The notes under the pieces were generated by a model. The model worked only from the letters and a program-made list of their open reading frames with translations, did not search any database and had not been told where the DNA came from. The position numbers were made by a program, and so were the translations under genes. Positions 1-37,637 of a DNA stretch of 37,637 nt are shown here, one piece after another (the stretch's first letter is position 1; each line of letters opens with the position of its first letter). The DNA lies in IMG/VR virus record IMGVR_UViG_3300027309_000018, positions 1 through 37,637 of that record. One strand, written 5' to 3'. Origin of the DNA: a virus.

Positions 1-63
1 GTCTGGGCTCTCCGAGATAGAGATCGCTATGGTCTTCTGTCCTAGAATCTCTTGGTAGCTCAT
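1..63 (-). CDS. Start of a probable SLOG-domain protein (partial)
   Basis: Only the first 21 codons are in the window; the gene runs off the left edge. Its ATG overlaps the stop of the upstream TIR gene as ATGA, so the two are very likely translationally coupled. The visible peptide contains KTIAISISESPD. From memory this resembles the first strand and nucleotide-binding loop of SLOG/LSDAT proteins, which often start with a phrase like GKxIAxSISESPDL. SLOG domains bind nucleotides; in Thoeris ThsA, the SLOG domain senses the cyclic-ADP-ribose isomer made by the TIR protein. Sensor or effector partner of the TIR proteins is therefore an inference from 21 residues and context. The rest of the gene would show any fused effector domain. 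Confidence 0.5.
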   Translation of the reverse strand, partial: MSYQEILGQKTIAISISESPD

Positions 64-1250
64 CGCACAGCCCCCGCTTTCCATTCCGTCAGACTACGTA
101 GCTGAACCCGAGGTGATATCTCTGCAAATAGCCGCTCTTCCTCTGCACTGAGTGGTGGATCCGGATAAACAATCACCGGATTCGGTACATCCGCCTCGGG
201 TGGCAGGCTCGCAAGCGATATGAGTTCTGGGGGCCTAGGAACGAAAATGACTGAGGGATCGCGGTTCTCGTCGGATAGCTCAAGCGCAATACGGCAACGC
301 CACAGGAAGTCTTTCAGAACCTCGTCGAGCAGCCGGGCAATTACGAAGTCTATGCGATCGGCACCGTCTGGCTCCAGCCGGACCACCGGGACATTGCCCA
401 TATAGGGAAAGCCACGCTCATCGATGTCGCTAATACTATTGGCTACAACCAGAGGCACATGCCAGCGCTTTGCCTCAATAATCTCTTTGCGACACCATTC
501 ACGTGACGAGTAAGAATCAGTGTGAATGGCGACCATCGCGCTCACTCGAACATTGTGGATCAGTATTTTCTGAAAACGAAGACCGGCCGGAATATCATAG
601 ACATCGAAGAAGCTGTCCATTCCTGGCGTATTGTGGAGCCTACTTCGGACGTTTCTAGCAATATCTTCACCATGCCGGTCATGTTTTGAATGACTAAGGA
701 ATATTCGCACTTTCTTTAAATAAGCTTCAAGCGCTTCCTCTTCCTCTTCGGGACGTTTGAGGTGTTCTAGATAGTGGCGTAGCAAACGGCAAAATGCGTA
801 TGTCAATGCAGCAGTCAATCGACGACCACGTTCGGCAAGTTCACCCTCCCAGCGCGCCCAAAGCAAAGCTTGCTCATTAGTTCCTAGGCGCCCTAGCACA
901 CCGGCATCAATTTCTACGGGGAAGACCCTCGTTCCTAAGCCCGCCGCCTCAGTGCGACGGCAGAGTTCTTGGACGTAGGCCGTCCAGGCCGTATCGCCGA
1001 CGAGGTTGTTGTCCACGAGTACTACAATGGCAGAAGTGTCCGCGTCCGCGAGGTCAATTGGGAGAGGCTGGGTAGATTCCGGCGCCAAAACATATCTGTA
1101 TATGACGCTTAGCCCAGTCCCGCCTGCGATATTTTCGTACAGCTTTCTGCGAAAATGTTGCCGAAGGATTTCGGCGATGGCAAGGCCGTCCGAAAAAGCC
1201 GGGTGCCATACGACGTACACTACTAGAAACGGGCGGGTTGAGTCAGTCAT
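60..1250 (-). CDS. Protein with two TIR-like domains
   Basis: This 396-residue protein has no signal peptide or membrane segment. Residues about 181-300 form a TIR domain: VRIFLSHSKHD strand, the DVYDIPAG region, and EWCRKEI carrying the probable catalytic glutamate E256. Residues about 7-135 look like a second, diverged Rossmann/TIR-like fold (FLVVYVVWHPAF, IVVLVDNNLV, RVFPVEID). A linker with an acidic run (EEEEEE, about 168-173) joins them. The C-terminal tail (about 335-396) has a YPDPPL motif. Bacterial TIR domains with this glutamate hydrolyse or cyclise NAD+. The gene starts 6 bases after the ThsB-like gene and its stop overlaps the start of the SLOG-like gene, so the three form one transcription unit. 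Whether both halves are active cannot be read from sequence. Confidence 0.8.
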   Translation of the reverse strand: MTDSTRPFLVVYVVWHPAFSDGLAIAEILRQHFRRKLYENIAGGTGLSVIYRYVLAPESTQPLPIDLADADTSAIVVLVDNNLVGDTAWTAYVQELCRRTEAAGLGTRVFPVEIDAGVLGRLGTNEQALLWARWEGELAERGRRLTAALTYAFCRLLRHYLEHLKRPEEEEEALEAYLKKVRIFLSHSKHDRHGEDIARNVRSRLHNTPGMDSFFDVYDIPAGLRFQKILIHNVRVSAMVAIHTDSYSSREWCRKEIIEAKRWHVPLVVANSISDIDERGFPYMGNVPVVRLEPDGADRIDFVIARLLDEVLKDFLWRCRIALELSDENRDPSVIFVPRPPELISLASLPPEADVPNPVIVYPDPPLSAEEERLFAEISPRVQLRSLTEWKAGAVR

Positions 1251-1256
1251 ATGCGC

Positions 1257-1799
1257 TCATCCGTTACGAAGACGGCGTGGCCTAGTGTTATCGATTTTTG
1301 AAGCACTTCGGCTCTTTGCCTCTGCAATGTACTCACCAAGCTTGGTTGTGTTAGCTGTGATTTGCCCCCACGTAAGCCATAACGCGAAGCCGGATTTTAC
1401 ATTATCAAAGAGCCGACCAGGGACAAAGACACGCTGATTATCAGGGGTTAATCTAGCAGTGGGCAACTGTACGCCAATAAGCGCGTGTTTTTTTTCAAGT
1501 GTCGCCGAAATTTCCCAATCGATGTACTTCCGCGTCGGGCTTTCCGCCCCAACAAGAATGATCGTACAAGAGGTACCTGTGATGTGGTTTTCCCGAATAC
1601 GCCGCATCACGTAATCGACGTTATCGCTATCGATGCTGCGTTCAAGGGAGTTGTCGTAGACCACGTTGTAGGTATCGTGAAATGCTTTTGTAAAACTATC
1701 GTAGTAGTCTTGGTCCCCCTTGTGGTGATAGCTCACGAATATTTTGTGCCTCACCAGTGCCTGGGGGCGAGAAGCGCCACCGAAAATCCCATAATTCAT
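1257..1799 (-). CDS. ThsB-like TIR domain protein (DUF1863 type)
   Basis: This 180-residue protein matches the ThsB/DUF1863 TIR-like fold: KIFVSYHHKGDQDYYD first strand and loop, a central IRRIR-like helix, CTIILVGAES strand, then KYIDWEI with the probable catalytic E96. ThsB proteins in Thoeris sense phage infection and convert NAD+ into a cyclic ADP-ribose isomer that activates ThsA. An AAGGA ribosome-binding site precedes the ATG. It is first in a three-gene minus-strand unit. Base composition is visibly lower in GC than in the phage structural genes, which suggests separate acquisition. The TIR identity is well supported. The Thoeris-type role is inferred from family and neighbours, since no SIR2-SLOG ThsA is visible here. 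Confidence 0.85.
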   Translation of the reverse strand: MNYGIFGGASRPQALVRHKIFVSYHHKGDQDYYDSFTKAFHDTYNVVYDNSLERSIDSDNVDYVMRRIRENHITGTSCTIILVGAESPTRKYIDWEISATLEKKHALIGVQLPTARLTPDNQRVFVPGRLFDNVKSGFALWLTWGQITANTTKLGEYIAEAKSRSASKIDNTRPRRLRNG

Positions 1800-25478: not shown

Positions 25479-25547
25479 TGAATCATGATTCAGCACACAA
25501 AGCAATCACAATTCACTCGCGCCGACGCACATTTGAACCATGGTTGA
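25479..25547. promoter_or_regulatory. CI/Cro operators, right cluster (OR-like)
   Basis: Three related 14-bp dyads: TGAATCATGATTCA (25479-25492, perfect), GCAATCACAATTCA (25502-25515, four mismatches to the first) and TGAACCATGGTTGA (25534-25547, spans the CI start codon). The first two are 23 bases apart, the last 32. A site over its own start codon suggests CI autorepression. The perfect site recurs at 27289-27302. Confidence 0.8.
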
Positions 25548-31391: not shown

Positions 31392-31531
31392 AAACCCTTT
31401 GCACTGGCTTAATTGAGGAAGTTGTCGGAACAGACTGCAGGCGACTACAGCAAAAGACTGCGATATGTATAGAGCGGATGTGCTTATCTCGGAGAGTTTC
31501 AATCTCTCAACATCAAATAAAAAATCTACCG
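31392..31531. other. Gap before the tRNA-like RNA
   Basis: No gene seen. A short hairpin GAGAG-N7-CTCTC lies at about 31492-31508 in an A/T-rich context; composition shifts here from GC-rich to AT-rich. Confidence 0.4.
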
Positions 31532-31560
31532 TTGACAACCACAAACCCGTTTGTTATAAT
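31532..31560 (+). promoter_or_regulatory. Consensus sigma-70 promoter with operator in spacer
   Basis: TTGACA, 17 bases, TATAAT: both hexamers match consensus. The spacer holds the perfect dyad ACAAAC-CC-GTTTGT (31541-31554), placed where a bound repressor would block polymerase. It is not the CI operator sequence. Transcription should start near 31567, at the 5' end of the structure below. Confidence 0.85.
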
Positions 31561-31566
31561 TTTCAA

Positions 31567-31667
31567 ACAGTCATCTGGCGACGATTAATTAAAAGCAACA
31601 TTAATTAATCGGGTGGGTTCGAATCCCTCCTGACTAAAACACATTCTGGGAGTGTTTTTTAGTCAGG
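31567..31667 (+). ncRNA. tRNA-like small RNA followed by a hairpin
   Basis: Elements in order: AGTCA (31569-31573); an 8-base single strand; a perfect 11-bp stem CGATTAATTAA / TTAATTAATCG (31581-31591 and 31600-31610 or close) with an 8-base loop AAGCAACA; a T-arm-like hairpin GTGGG-TTCGAAT-CCCTC (31613-31629) with a canonical T-loop; then TGACT (31631-31635), which closes on AGTCA. No D stem and no normal anticodon arm. It is followed by CCTGACTAAAACAC / GTGTTTTTTAGTCAGG (31629-31667), whose left arm reuses TGACT. This could be a terminator or an alternative fold. A remnant of a tRNA att site is the other reading. Confidence 0.55.
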
Positions 31668-32574
31668 GGCGCCTTCGCTCTCTTCCCAAGAGCTCTGGTT
31701 TTCTAGCTCTTATTTCGTCTTCCAAAGATGCGTCAAGCCTTGCGTATTTTAGGCTTTTGCACGCTAGCAGCTGTTCTACAGTTAATTCAATAGACTGCCG
31801 AAGATCGGCACGTTCCATGTTGCATCCCTTAAGTGATGCTTCTTTGAAATTGCAATTTTTAAACCGCGTCGAATGAAAGTCGGAGTCATCCAATTCCGCC
31901 TTGAAAAAATCCACGCCGTCCAAATTGCCAGCTCTCATCTTTCCTTTATTAAACTTAAAATACCTCATGGGACAATTTTCAATACTCACATTATTGAAAT
32001 TTGCTCCAATTGCAAAAGCTCCACGAAAGCTTGTGTTAGAGAATATTGATCCTTCAAAATTTGAACCATTCAAAACTGCGCCCATAGCCTGCGAGTTTGA
32101 CAAATTCAATTTCTTGGGCTTTGTTTTTATTAAAGCACATTTTGATATATCGATTGAATAAATTTTAAGATCCTGCAAGCGACGTATATTTGCATAATTT
32201 TTAAATGATGCTTCTGCCGAAAACCAGAATCTAGTATCGTCAATATTTTCTTTGTATTTTCTAATAAGCCCCAATCTTTCATGCTTGGTCATCACAAAAT
32301 ACAAACCAATGCTAAAAACAAGGAAGTCGATAGCACTGCTATGCATATTGGTGACAAGCCCTGCATAAAAAGAATCCTGCCCCCAAAGAGAATATTTCAC
32401 ATAAATTGGGAGTCTTTCGTACAATATTGTAGCGATTATTATTGCAATCAAGAAAACAATAAAGACCCTAAATAACGATATTACTCGACCATCTTTCGCC
32501 AGAAATTCGATGATTTTTGCAAACACATTTTTATTTTCTTCTTCTGTATAATTTTGATTTCTCATATTTATCAT
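31663..32574 (-). CDS. Two-TM pentapeptide-repeat protein (moron)
   Basis: About 303 residues. Two membrane helices at about 36-55 (FRVFIVFLIAIIIATILY) and 79-98 (AIDFLVFSIGLYFVM). Cytoplasmic pentapeptide-like repeats from about 150 to 260: LNLSNSQAMGAVLNGSNFEGS, SFRGAFAIGANFNNV, NLDGVDFFKAELDDSDF, ASLKGCNMERADLRQ. Strongly AT-rich, unlike the phage core, and antisense to the left arm. Membrane pentapeptide proteins occur in exclusion or abortive systems; no role is proven. ATG at 32574 chosen; another at 32565 is possible; neither has a clear ribosome-binding site. Confidence 0.75.
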   Translation of the reverse strand: MINMRNQNYTEEENKNVFAKIIEFLAKDGRVISLFRVFIVFLIAIIIATILYERLPIYVKYSLWGQDSFYAGLVTNMHSSAIDFLVFSIGLYFVMTKHERLGLIRKYKENIDDTRFWFSAEASFKNYANIRRLQDLKIYSIDISKCALIKTKPKKLNLSNSQAMGAVLNGSNFEGSIFSNTSFRGAFAIGANFNNVSIENCPMRYFKFNKGKMRAGNLDGVDFFKAELDDSDFHSTRFKNCNFKEASLKGCNMERADLRQSIELTVEQLLACKSLKYARLDASLEDEIRARKPELLGRERRRP

Positions 32575-32617
32575 CAAACTCGAATTTCGAAGTTATTTCT
32601 TAGCAATTTCAAGCAAC

Positions 32618-33119: not shown

Positions 33120-33413
33120 ATGACCGCATACAAAGAACTGCTGGCCCGCAAGGCTGAAATCGATGCCCAGATCGCATCTGCTCAGACAGAGGTCAAAGCG
33201 AAGGCCGTGACCGAGGCCCGCGCGCTGATCGCAGAGCACGGCCTAACCGCTGTCGATGTCTTTCCGGCCCCGGGCAAGAAGGCCACCAGCGTGGGAGCGC
33301 CGAAGTACCGCGACCCCGCCACCGGCGTGACCTGGACAGGCCGGGGAAAGCCGCCGAATTGGATCAACGGTAAGGACCGCGAGCAATTCCTGATCGAAAC
33401 GGCCAAAAGTTAG
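33120..33413 (+). CDS. H-NS-like nucleoid protein
   Basis: 97 residues. N-terminal coiled coil (ELLARKAEIDAQIASAQTEVKAKAVTEARALIAEHGL) for dimerisation; C-terminal YRDPATGVTWTGRGKPPNWI, the AT-DNA-binding motif of Burkholderiales H-NS proteins. It would bind AT-rich DNA, and AT-rich genes lie on both sides (31663-32574 and 33630-34250), so it may silence the morons in the lysogen or offset host H-NS (inference). Confidence 0.9.
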   Translation: MTAYKELLARKAEIDAQIASAQTEVKAKAVTEARALIAEHGLTAVDVFPAPGKKATSVGAPKYRDPATGVTWTGRGKPPNWINGKDREQFLIETAKS

Positions 33414-36381: not shown

Positions 36382-36612
36382 ATGAGCATCAGCCTGACCC
36401 TCTCTGAAGACGAAATCAGGGAGCTCACCCACTACCAATTTCCCTCCATGCAACTCAAGGCGCTGCACAAGCGCGGATTCTTCCGTGCACGGCTCAGCGA
36501 GCGCACGGGCAAAGTGCTGCTGGAGCGCGACCACTATCTGGCCGTCTGCGCTGGGCCAGCTCCGTCCACCGCGCCGCGCGTGCGGCCGCCGCAGATGCGG
36601 AGGCCAGCATGA
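36382..36612 (+). CDS. DUF4224 protein, possible excisionase-like partner
   Basis: 76 residues from MSISLTLSEDEIRELTHYQFPSMQLKALHKRGFF. The LTxxEI-LT-Q-ALxxxG pattern is DUF4224, a small helix-turn-helix-like family usually just upstream of phage integrases and often assumed to aid excision. AAAGGTG precedes the ATG. Its stop overlaps the integrase start (ATGA). Confidence 0.85.
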   Translation: MSISLTLSEDEIRELTHYQFPSMQLKALHKRGFFRARLSERTGKVLLERDHYLAVCAGPAPSTAPRVRPPQMRRPA

Positions 36613-37637
36613 GCAAGCGCCGCAGCGACCTACCGAAGCGTGTCTACGAAAAGGGGGGCGCCTATTGGCATGTCCGCGCCGAAGGGAAAAGGCGGATCTG
36701 GACGCGCCTATCCACCACCCGTGACGGCCTGCCTGCTCTATACCGCGCCCTGGCCGATATGGAGCAGGCAGACATGGCCCGGGACAGCATGCCCGCGCTG
36801 ATCGCGGACTGGCTCGCGGAGGTCGGTAGCCGGCACAGCGTGAAAACGCAGGCCAACGACGCCTACCAAACGCGCACTATCTCCGAATCGTTCCAGGAGT
36901 TTCGCGCGCAGGACGTCACCGCGCCAGCCATCGTGGAGTTCCTGAAACACTTCAGCGACAAGCCGCGCACCTACAACGCCTACCGCTCCATGCTGCGAGA
37001 GCTGATGCGGTTCGCCGAAGAGAAAGGCTACCGGCCGCCCGGCACTAACCCAGTGGACAGCCTCAAGACCATGTCCGTGAAGGCACGCACGCGGTACATC
37101 ACGGATTCCGAGGTGCGCCGCATCAAGGTGGCCGTGATGTACGGGGATGATGGCAAGCGCACGCGCTCCGGCCACACGATCTGTGCGCTGATCGACATGG
37201 CGTACCTGACCGGGCAGCGCATTGGCGACCTGCTGACCCTGCGGTGGAGCGATGTGGGTAAGCAGGGCATCACGTTCCAGCCAGCCAAAACCGAGGGCTC
37301 GACCGGCGCCCAGGTCCTGATCGCATGGACACGGCGCCTGCACGATGTTGTGGACCGCCTGCGGGCACTGCCCAACCAGAGCCCCGATTTCGTGTTCTGC
37401 ACGTTGCAGGGCCAGCCTTACACCTACTCGGGCGCATCAACCGCCTGGAAGCGGGCAGTGAAGCGGGCTGGCGTGAAGGACTGCCATTTCCATGACCTGC
37501 GCGGCAAGGCCTTGACCGATGTGGACCGAGGGCGCGGGATCATGGAGGCGCAGCGCATGGGCGCTCATTCCACCCAGTCCCAGACCGCCGACTATGTGCG
37601 CCACAAACGCGCGTTGAAGGTGGATGCGACACGCTGA
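36609..37637 (+). CDS. int: Tyrosine-family integrase
   Basis: 342 residues. N-terminal arm-binding domain (about 8-60, VYEKGGAYWHVRAEGKRRIWTRLSTTRDG), core-binding helices (about 65-145), catalytic domain with R204 (TGQRIGDLL), H295 and R298 (HFHDLRGKALT), H320 (MGAHSTQS) and the nucleophile Y329 (TADYVRHKR). It mediates site-specific integration and excision. It points outward and ends at the window edge, so attR must lie just beyond. Confidence 0.96.
   Translation: MSKRRSDLPKRVYEKGGAYWHVRAEGKRRIWTRLSTTRDGLPALYRALADMEQADMARDSMPALIADWLAEVGSRHSVKTQANDAYQTRTISESFQEFRAQDVTAPAIVEFLKHFSDKPRTYNAYRSMLRELMRFAEEKGYRPPGTNPVDSLKTMSVKARTRYITDSEVRRIKVAVMYGDDGKRTRSGHTICALIDMAYLTGQRIGDLLTLRWSDVGKQGITFQPAKTEGSTGAQVLIAWTRRLHDVVDRLRALPNQSPDFVFCTLQGQPYTYSGASTAWKRAVKRAGVKDCHFHDLRGKALTDVDRGRGIMEAQRMGAHSTQSQTADYVRHKRALKVDATR

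Follow-up and report, generated by a model that had tools for sequence, protein, structure and literature searches.

A predicted small RNA with a tRNA-derived T-arm in a Delftia-type prophage and a candidate family of tRNA-Ser-like pseudoknot RNAs in phages

A promoter and a predicted tRNA-like RNA in a variable prophage cassette

The window, by which we mean the whole stretch of DNA analyzed here, is a linear record of 37,637 bases (IMGVR_UViG_3300027309_000018). It is a Delftia-type prophage, with the integrase gene at the record end (36609–37637), a CI-like repressor at 25540, and head genes on the minus strand. Genes for a TIR-domain protein and a Thoeris ThsB-like protein lie at the left prophage end (60–1799, minus strand) and likely constitute a defense moron. 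The gene immediately upstream of the locus described below is common to 11 related viral contigs and also occurs in genomes of Delftia acidovorans and D. tsuruhatensis, and the cassette 3′ of this gene is variable, differing among the 11 relatives. At 33–40% GC, as compared with 63–70% in its surroundings, the cassette is AT-rich; the AT-rich moron and composition change reported in a reading made from the letters of this DNA (the sequence-only reading) correspond to a drop from 63% to 33–40% GC beside the RNA. The moron itself is an AT-rich gene encoding a pentapeptide-repeat protein (31663–32577, minus strand), for which we found no close relative in viral contigs and only weak matches, in phages and plasmids. 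A small H-NS C-terminal-domain protein is encoded at 33120–33413 (plus strand), and related phages carry apparent fragments or homologues of it at the same place.

A consensus sigma-70 promoter with an extended −10 TG, TTGACA-N17-TATAAT, occupies 31532–31560 (plus strand). It matches at 12 of 12 positions and is the sole 12/12 TTGACA/TATAAT pair in the window, with none arising in 100 simulated windows. Its spacer contains a 14-bp dyad, ACAAACccGTTTGT (31541–31554), as the sequence-only reading had described; such a dyad arises in 1.5% of shuffled spacers and may represent an operator. The further claim that the promoter is repressible was not upheld. The dyad is single-copy, our search (≤2 mismatches) having returned no second instance of it, and its sequence differs from that of the operator-like palindrome TGAATCATGATTCA near cI. 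This palindrome (25479–25492), upstream of cI, is a probable CI operator. Because ACAAACccGTTTGT differs from TGAATCATGATTCA, repression by CI has no support here, and by sequence the promoter shares no operator with the cI control region.

Downstream of the promoter we predict a small RNA of ~93 nt, termed W2 (31567–31660, plus strand), its start inferred from the −10 box and its end from the U-run. Close to its 5′ end W2 has AGTCA (31569–31573), the 5′ strand of a closing stem, followed by an AT-rich hairpin (31582–31611) with an 8-nt loop and 11 of 11 stem positions paired (31582–31592/31601–31611). A T-arm, GTGGG-TTCGAAT-CCCTC (31613–31629), comes next, and TGACT (31631–31635) provides the 3′ strand of the closing stem. 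The same TGACT is reused by an AU-rich hairpin at 31629–31667, which has 18-nt arms that are 89% complementary and a U-run on both strands. These elements all lie where they had been placed from the sequence, and we likewise found neither a D-arm nor an anticodon arm, an acceptor reduced to 5 pairs as compared with 7, and no encoded CCA. The folds contain no decodable anticodon arm, and ARAGORN calls no tRNA here.

The T-arm of W2 matches the host: positions 31615–31630 are identical, 16 of 16, to Delftia tRNA-Ser(GCT) and tRNA-Ser(CGA). It forms four of five pairs, with one U–U mismatch, and a T-arm of this kind is present in 0.2% of shuffles of the segment (P = 0.002). The weak part is the AGTCA/TGACT closing stem, as a 5-bp stem occurs in 10% of shuffled leaders. 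This stem is predicted with P 0.6–0.8 for an RNA ending at 31640–31660 and with P 0 for one reaching 31667; an RNA ending in the U-run (31655–31660) would therefore keep the tRNA-like fold. Two folds thus do compete through TGACT, as had been proposed, with the outcome set by the 3′ end (31660 vs 31667). Folding of 31567–31667, a check suggested along with that proposal, gave z = −5.4, mainly due to the hairpin. A strict terminator scan did not return the hairpin, presumably because it has few G–C pairs and its T-run lies inside a longer stem. Given the T-run on the other strand and its coverage of the stop codon of the convergent pentapeptide gene, the hairpin is probably a bidirectional terminator that ends both transcripts. 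Taken as anatomy, these features give good support to an independent RNA gene whose T-arm derives from a tRNA, and the interpretation in the sequence-only reading is supported in part.

Searches of viral, phage, and plasmid collections and of sampled Burkholderiales genomes turned up no homologue of W2. Exact and gapped W2 patterns had no match in viral contigs, BLAST of the locus had none against phages or against plasmids, and no Rfam family (tRNA, tmRNA, Y RNA, and others) scored above its curated threshold. Low-scoring Rfam matches to the region (snoRNA, miRNA) were dismissed as chance, as were CTACAGCAAAAG motif matches at L027 and L032–L036, which fall mostly within coding sequence.

A pseudoknotted arm in place of the anticodon arm across a tRNA-Ser-like RNA family

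W2 sits ~50 nt downstream of another element, W1 (31413–31521, plus strand), a neighbor outside the coordinates of the sequence-only reading and overlooked there. Over 67 nt, W1 shares 75% identity (BLAST E 5e-7) with a stretch of L010, a related Delftia phage. L010 carries a better-preserved copy of the RNA of which W1 is a decayed relative, and when 14 related Delftia-type phage records were compared together with the window, only L010 and the window proved to have a family RNA. The T-stem of W1 is kept (5/5 pairs), whereas the acceptor (3/7) and most of the pseudoknot helices S1 and S2 are lost, with S2 at −6.0 kcal as compared with a family mean of −17.3; we therefore regard W1 as a decayed copy. 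ARAGORN and the pair counts reject it as an intact tRNA.

A model built from W1 and L010 only (R1) picked up additional sequences in genomes belonging to the family of the host, together with one spurious match (L110). From the shared D-arm, GTGAC, and T-arm we derived a DNA pattern that matched 27 viral-contig stretches. In all, phages and prophages yielded about 25 distinct relatives, and 25 distinct sequences were aligned (family loci: L111–L136, L107, L108, L109, L010, and L164); resting on one strict pattern and sampled genomes, these counts are lower bounds. Because the letters of the D-loop, GTGAC, and the T-loop were fixed by the pattern, their conservation is no evidence; no such constraint applied to the acceptor, S1, S2, or most of the T-stem pairs. 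A strict pattern for the family matched none of 350 genomes across the class, and model R2, run over an order, mainly returned host tRNA-Ser. BLAST of the L010, L107, L109, and L111 RNAs against phages gave no match; the L129 RNA had one short, T-arm-sized match in Proteus phage 10.

Members share the order acceptor, TG, D-arm, GTGAC with the 5′ strand of S1, A-rich linker, S2, T-arm, acceptor. S2 is a long arm with the 3′ strand of S1 in its loop, creating a loop-back pseudoknot that replaces the anticodon arm. Covariation was assessed in 21 sequences, W1 and L010 excluded, over 31 pairs including the pseudoknot: 85.8% of cells are paired (66.3% when shuffled), 113 cells carry double changes (36.3 ± 4.9 in shuffles), and the covariation score is 0.50, whereas slid partners reach no more than 0.12. 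As some of the related viral contigs may have a common ancestry, we chose 14 representatives to reduce this effect in a strand-swap test. Swapping strands among them left acceptor pairing at 2.9 of 7, down from 6.1, and weakened both pseudoknot helices (S2, −17.3 to −11.0 kcal/mol; S1, −6.0 to −2.8 kcal/mol), with P 0.0002 for each of the three changes, the smallest value the test can give. Covariation thus shows a pseudoknotted arm in place of the anticodon arm across the family. A canonical 5-bp/7-nt anticodon arm was found in 0 of 25 members, by a search whose control recovered the arm at full strength in just two of the tRNAs tried.

ARAGORN calls no family member a tRNA, Rfam returned nothing for the members scanned (L010 and three others), and encoded CCA occurs in only a minority; the representatives average 6.1 of 7 acceptor pairs. 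Members score 66–116 bits with R2, Delftia tRNA-Ser 43–57, and tRNA-Leu 24–29; as tRNA-Ser outscores tRNA-Leu, the family is closest to tRNA-Ser. Family RNAs neighbor genes that include those for HNH endonucleases and terminase small subunits, with true tRNA genes in some of the phages, and a terminator-like hairpin lies just upstream in 8 of 25. Other odd tRNA-like sequences occur in these genomes. The phage of L122 carries a second such RNA (L122:11777–11867) with a 7-bp acceptor, a T-arm, and a middle arm CAGAG-11 nt-CTCTG, and directly after the family member of L124, on the minus strand, is another tRNA-like sequence with a class I D-arm, a T-arm, and an oversized middle region.

A further model, R3, was built with W1 and L010 held out. 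It scores L010 as a member at 73.4 bits and W1 at 15.7 bits (E 0.03), W1 being missed by a held-out sequence profile. W2 is matched by R3 in its T-arm only (12.2 bits) and falls outside the family as delimited by acceptor, D-arm, pseudoknot arm, and T-arm. Its parts follow the same succession as in the family (acceptor, long arm, T-arm), and W1 and W2 each have GGCGAC ahead of this arm, but these resemblances are only a hint of descent.

Possible origins and role of W2

We favor the reading that 31532–31667 is a small-RNA gene in a moron cassette, with W2 being a minimal tRNA mimic that lacks a D-arm or else what is left of one after stripping, and assign this a probability of roughly 0.45. 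Polymerase with the housekeeping sigma factor would start near 31567, 1–2 bases before the closing stem, and would halt in the U-run of the bidirectional hairpin to release the ~93-nt RNA. This is predicted to fold into the weak closing stem, the AT arm, and the tRNA-Ser-type T-arm stacked on the AT arm. Most likely, RNAs of this type would not decode but would occupy enzymes that recognize tRNA by its acceptor/T half.

The main rival, nearly as likely, holds that W2 is debris: at a moron hotspot, tRNA-like genes would have recombined and left a tRNA-derived T-arm caught between a promoter and the moron terminator, with no RNA function and any transcript a by-product. Such an origin fits the adjoining W1, which is clearly decayed (acceptor 3/7, S2 −6.0 vs −17.3 kcal, 15.7 bits), the uniqueness of W2 to this phage within a cassette variable among 11 relatives, and the U–U mismatch and missing CCA. 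It accounts less readily for the presence within 136 bp of a 12/12 promoter, a T-loop that is exact, and a matching end hairpin, which are unlikely to outlast drift together unless they arrived recently. We consider it improbable that the promoter instead serves the moron, its convergent transcript tuning the pentapeptide gene by transcriptional interference and the T-arm being incidental. The convergent orientation and the hairpin spanning the pentapeptide stop codon are compatible with this arrangement, and the L010 RNA likewise faces a minus-strand gene; however, the hairpin and U-run would end transcription short of the coding region, and the convergent protein at L010 matches nothing in Pfam and gives no indication of belonging to the pentapeptide proteins.

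An exact match of 31611–31637 to the 3′ end of a host tRNA gene, named in the sequence-only reading as grounds for abandoning its proposal, would have made W2 an old attachment-site scar, left by an element once integrated at a tRNA-Ser gene. Among 38 distinct Delftia tRNAs compared, tRNA-Ser(GCT) and tRNA-Ser(CGA) match only the 16 nt at 31615–31630. These 16 nt are present in most genomes of the genus sampled, which speaks for a scar, but they are simply the T-arm common to several tRNAs, and the match halts after one acceptor base. The integrase of L028 is 98% identical to that of the window and is directly followed by the 3′ part of tRNA-Pro(TGG), the attachment site of this integrase family (L028:7840–7908). 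W2 has no identity to the 3′ end of that tRNA and lies 5 kb away from int. With a T-arm-only match to tRNA-Ser and an integrase that uses tRNA-Pro, W2 is not the attachment site of this phage, and the scar explanation, largely refuted, is the least probable of all.

Relation to known tRNA-like RNAs

Both tmRNA and plant-virus tRNA-like structures join a tRNA-like acceptor/T domain with a pseudoknot, as does the family; its members differ in being ~100 nt long with the pseudoknot at the place of the anticodon arm, and an ARAGORN tmRNA search and Rfam were negative for them. Class II tRNAs (tRNA-Ser, with allo-tRNA and tRNA-Sec variants) have a D-loop, T-arm, and long arm like those of the family, but the family is without a canonical anticodon arm (0/25), and ARAGORN calls none of its members. 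Neither phages nor pseudoknots come up in a review on non-canonical tRNAs (PMC7609411). The same review describes type III mitochondrial tRNA-Ser(AGY), which is D-armless and consists of acceptor, connector, one long arm, and T-arm (PMC7609411). This is the part set of W2, although W2 is bacterial, has no anticodon-like loop, and has only a 5-bp closing stem. YrlA, a bacterial Y RNA with a tRNA-like domain, is bound by the Ro60 orthologue Rsr. It has been suggested that YrlA inhibits an anticodon nuclease by competition (PMC7790460). Like the RNAs here, it is a small noncoding bacterial RNA with a tRNA-like domain. The RNAs here differ in that W2, L010, and three family members have no relevant Rfam match, no TROVE/Ro60 gene is among the 20 ORFs scanned, and in the pseudoknot family the acceptor stem is closed and the neighboring genes are late phage genes.

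Our search of open-licence papers found no description of a tRNA-Ser-like pseudoknot family. Judged by that literature, by Rfam for the members scanned, and by ARAGORN, the family is a previously undescribed candidate class. That W2 and the family act as non-decoding tRNA mimics is speculative and drawn by analogy. We think it unlikely, if worth stating, that phages of Burkholderiales and other hosts carry a class of non-decoding tRNA-Ser-like RNAs engaging tRNA-recognizing host factors, from which W2 would descend as a D-armless acceptor/T-arm form. The covarying family is nevertheless a concrete candidate class of phage noncoding RNA, with the shape of tRNA-Ser and a pseudoknot swapped for the decoding arm. 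It makes it possible to ask whether tRNA mimics that do not decode serve phages against tRNA-targeting defenses or in engaging tRNA enzymes such as SerRS, RNase P, or EF-Tu, and W2, if transcribed, would be a natural minimal tRNA mimic under a consensus promoter.
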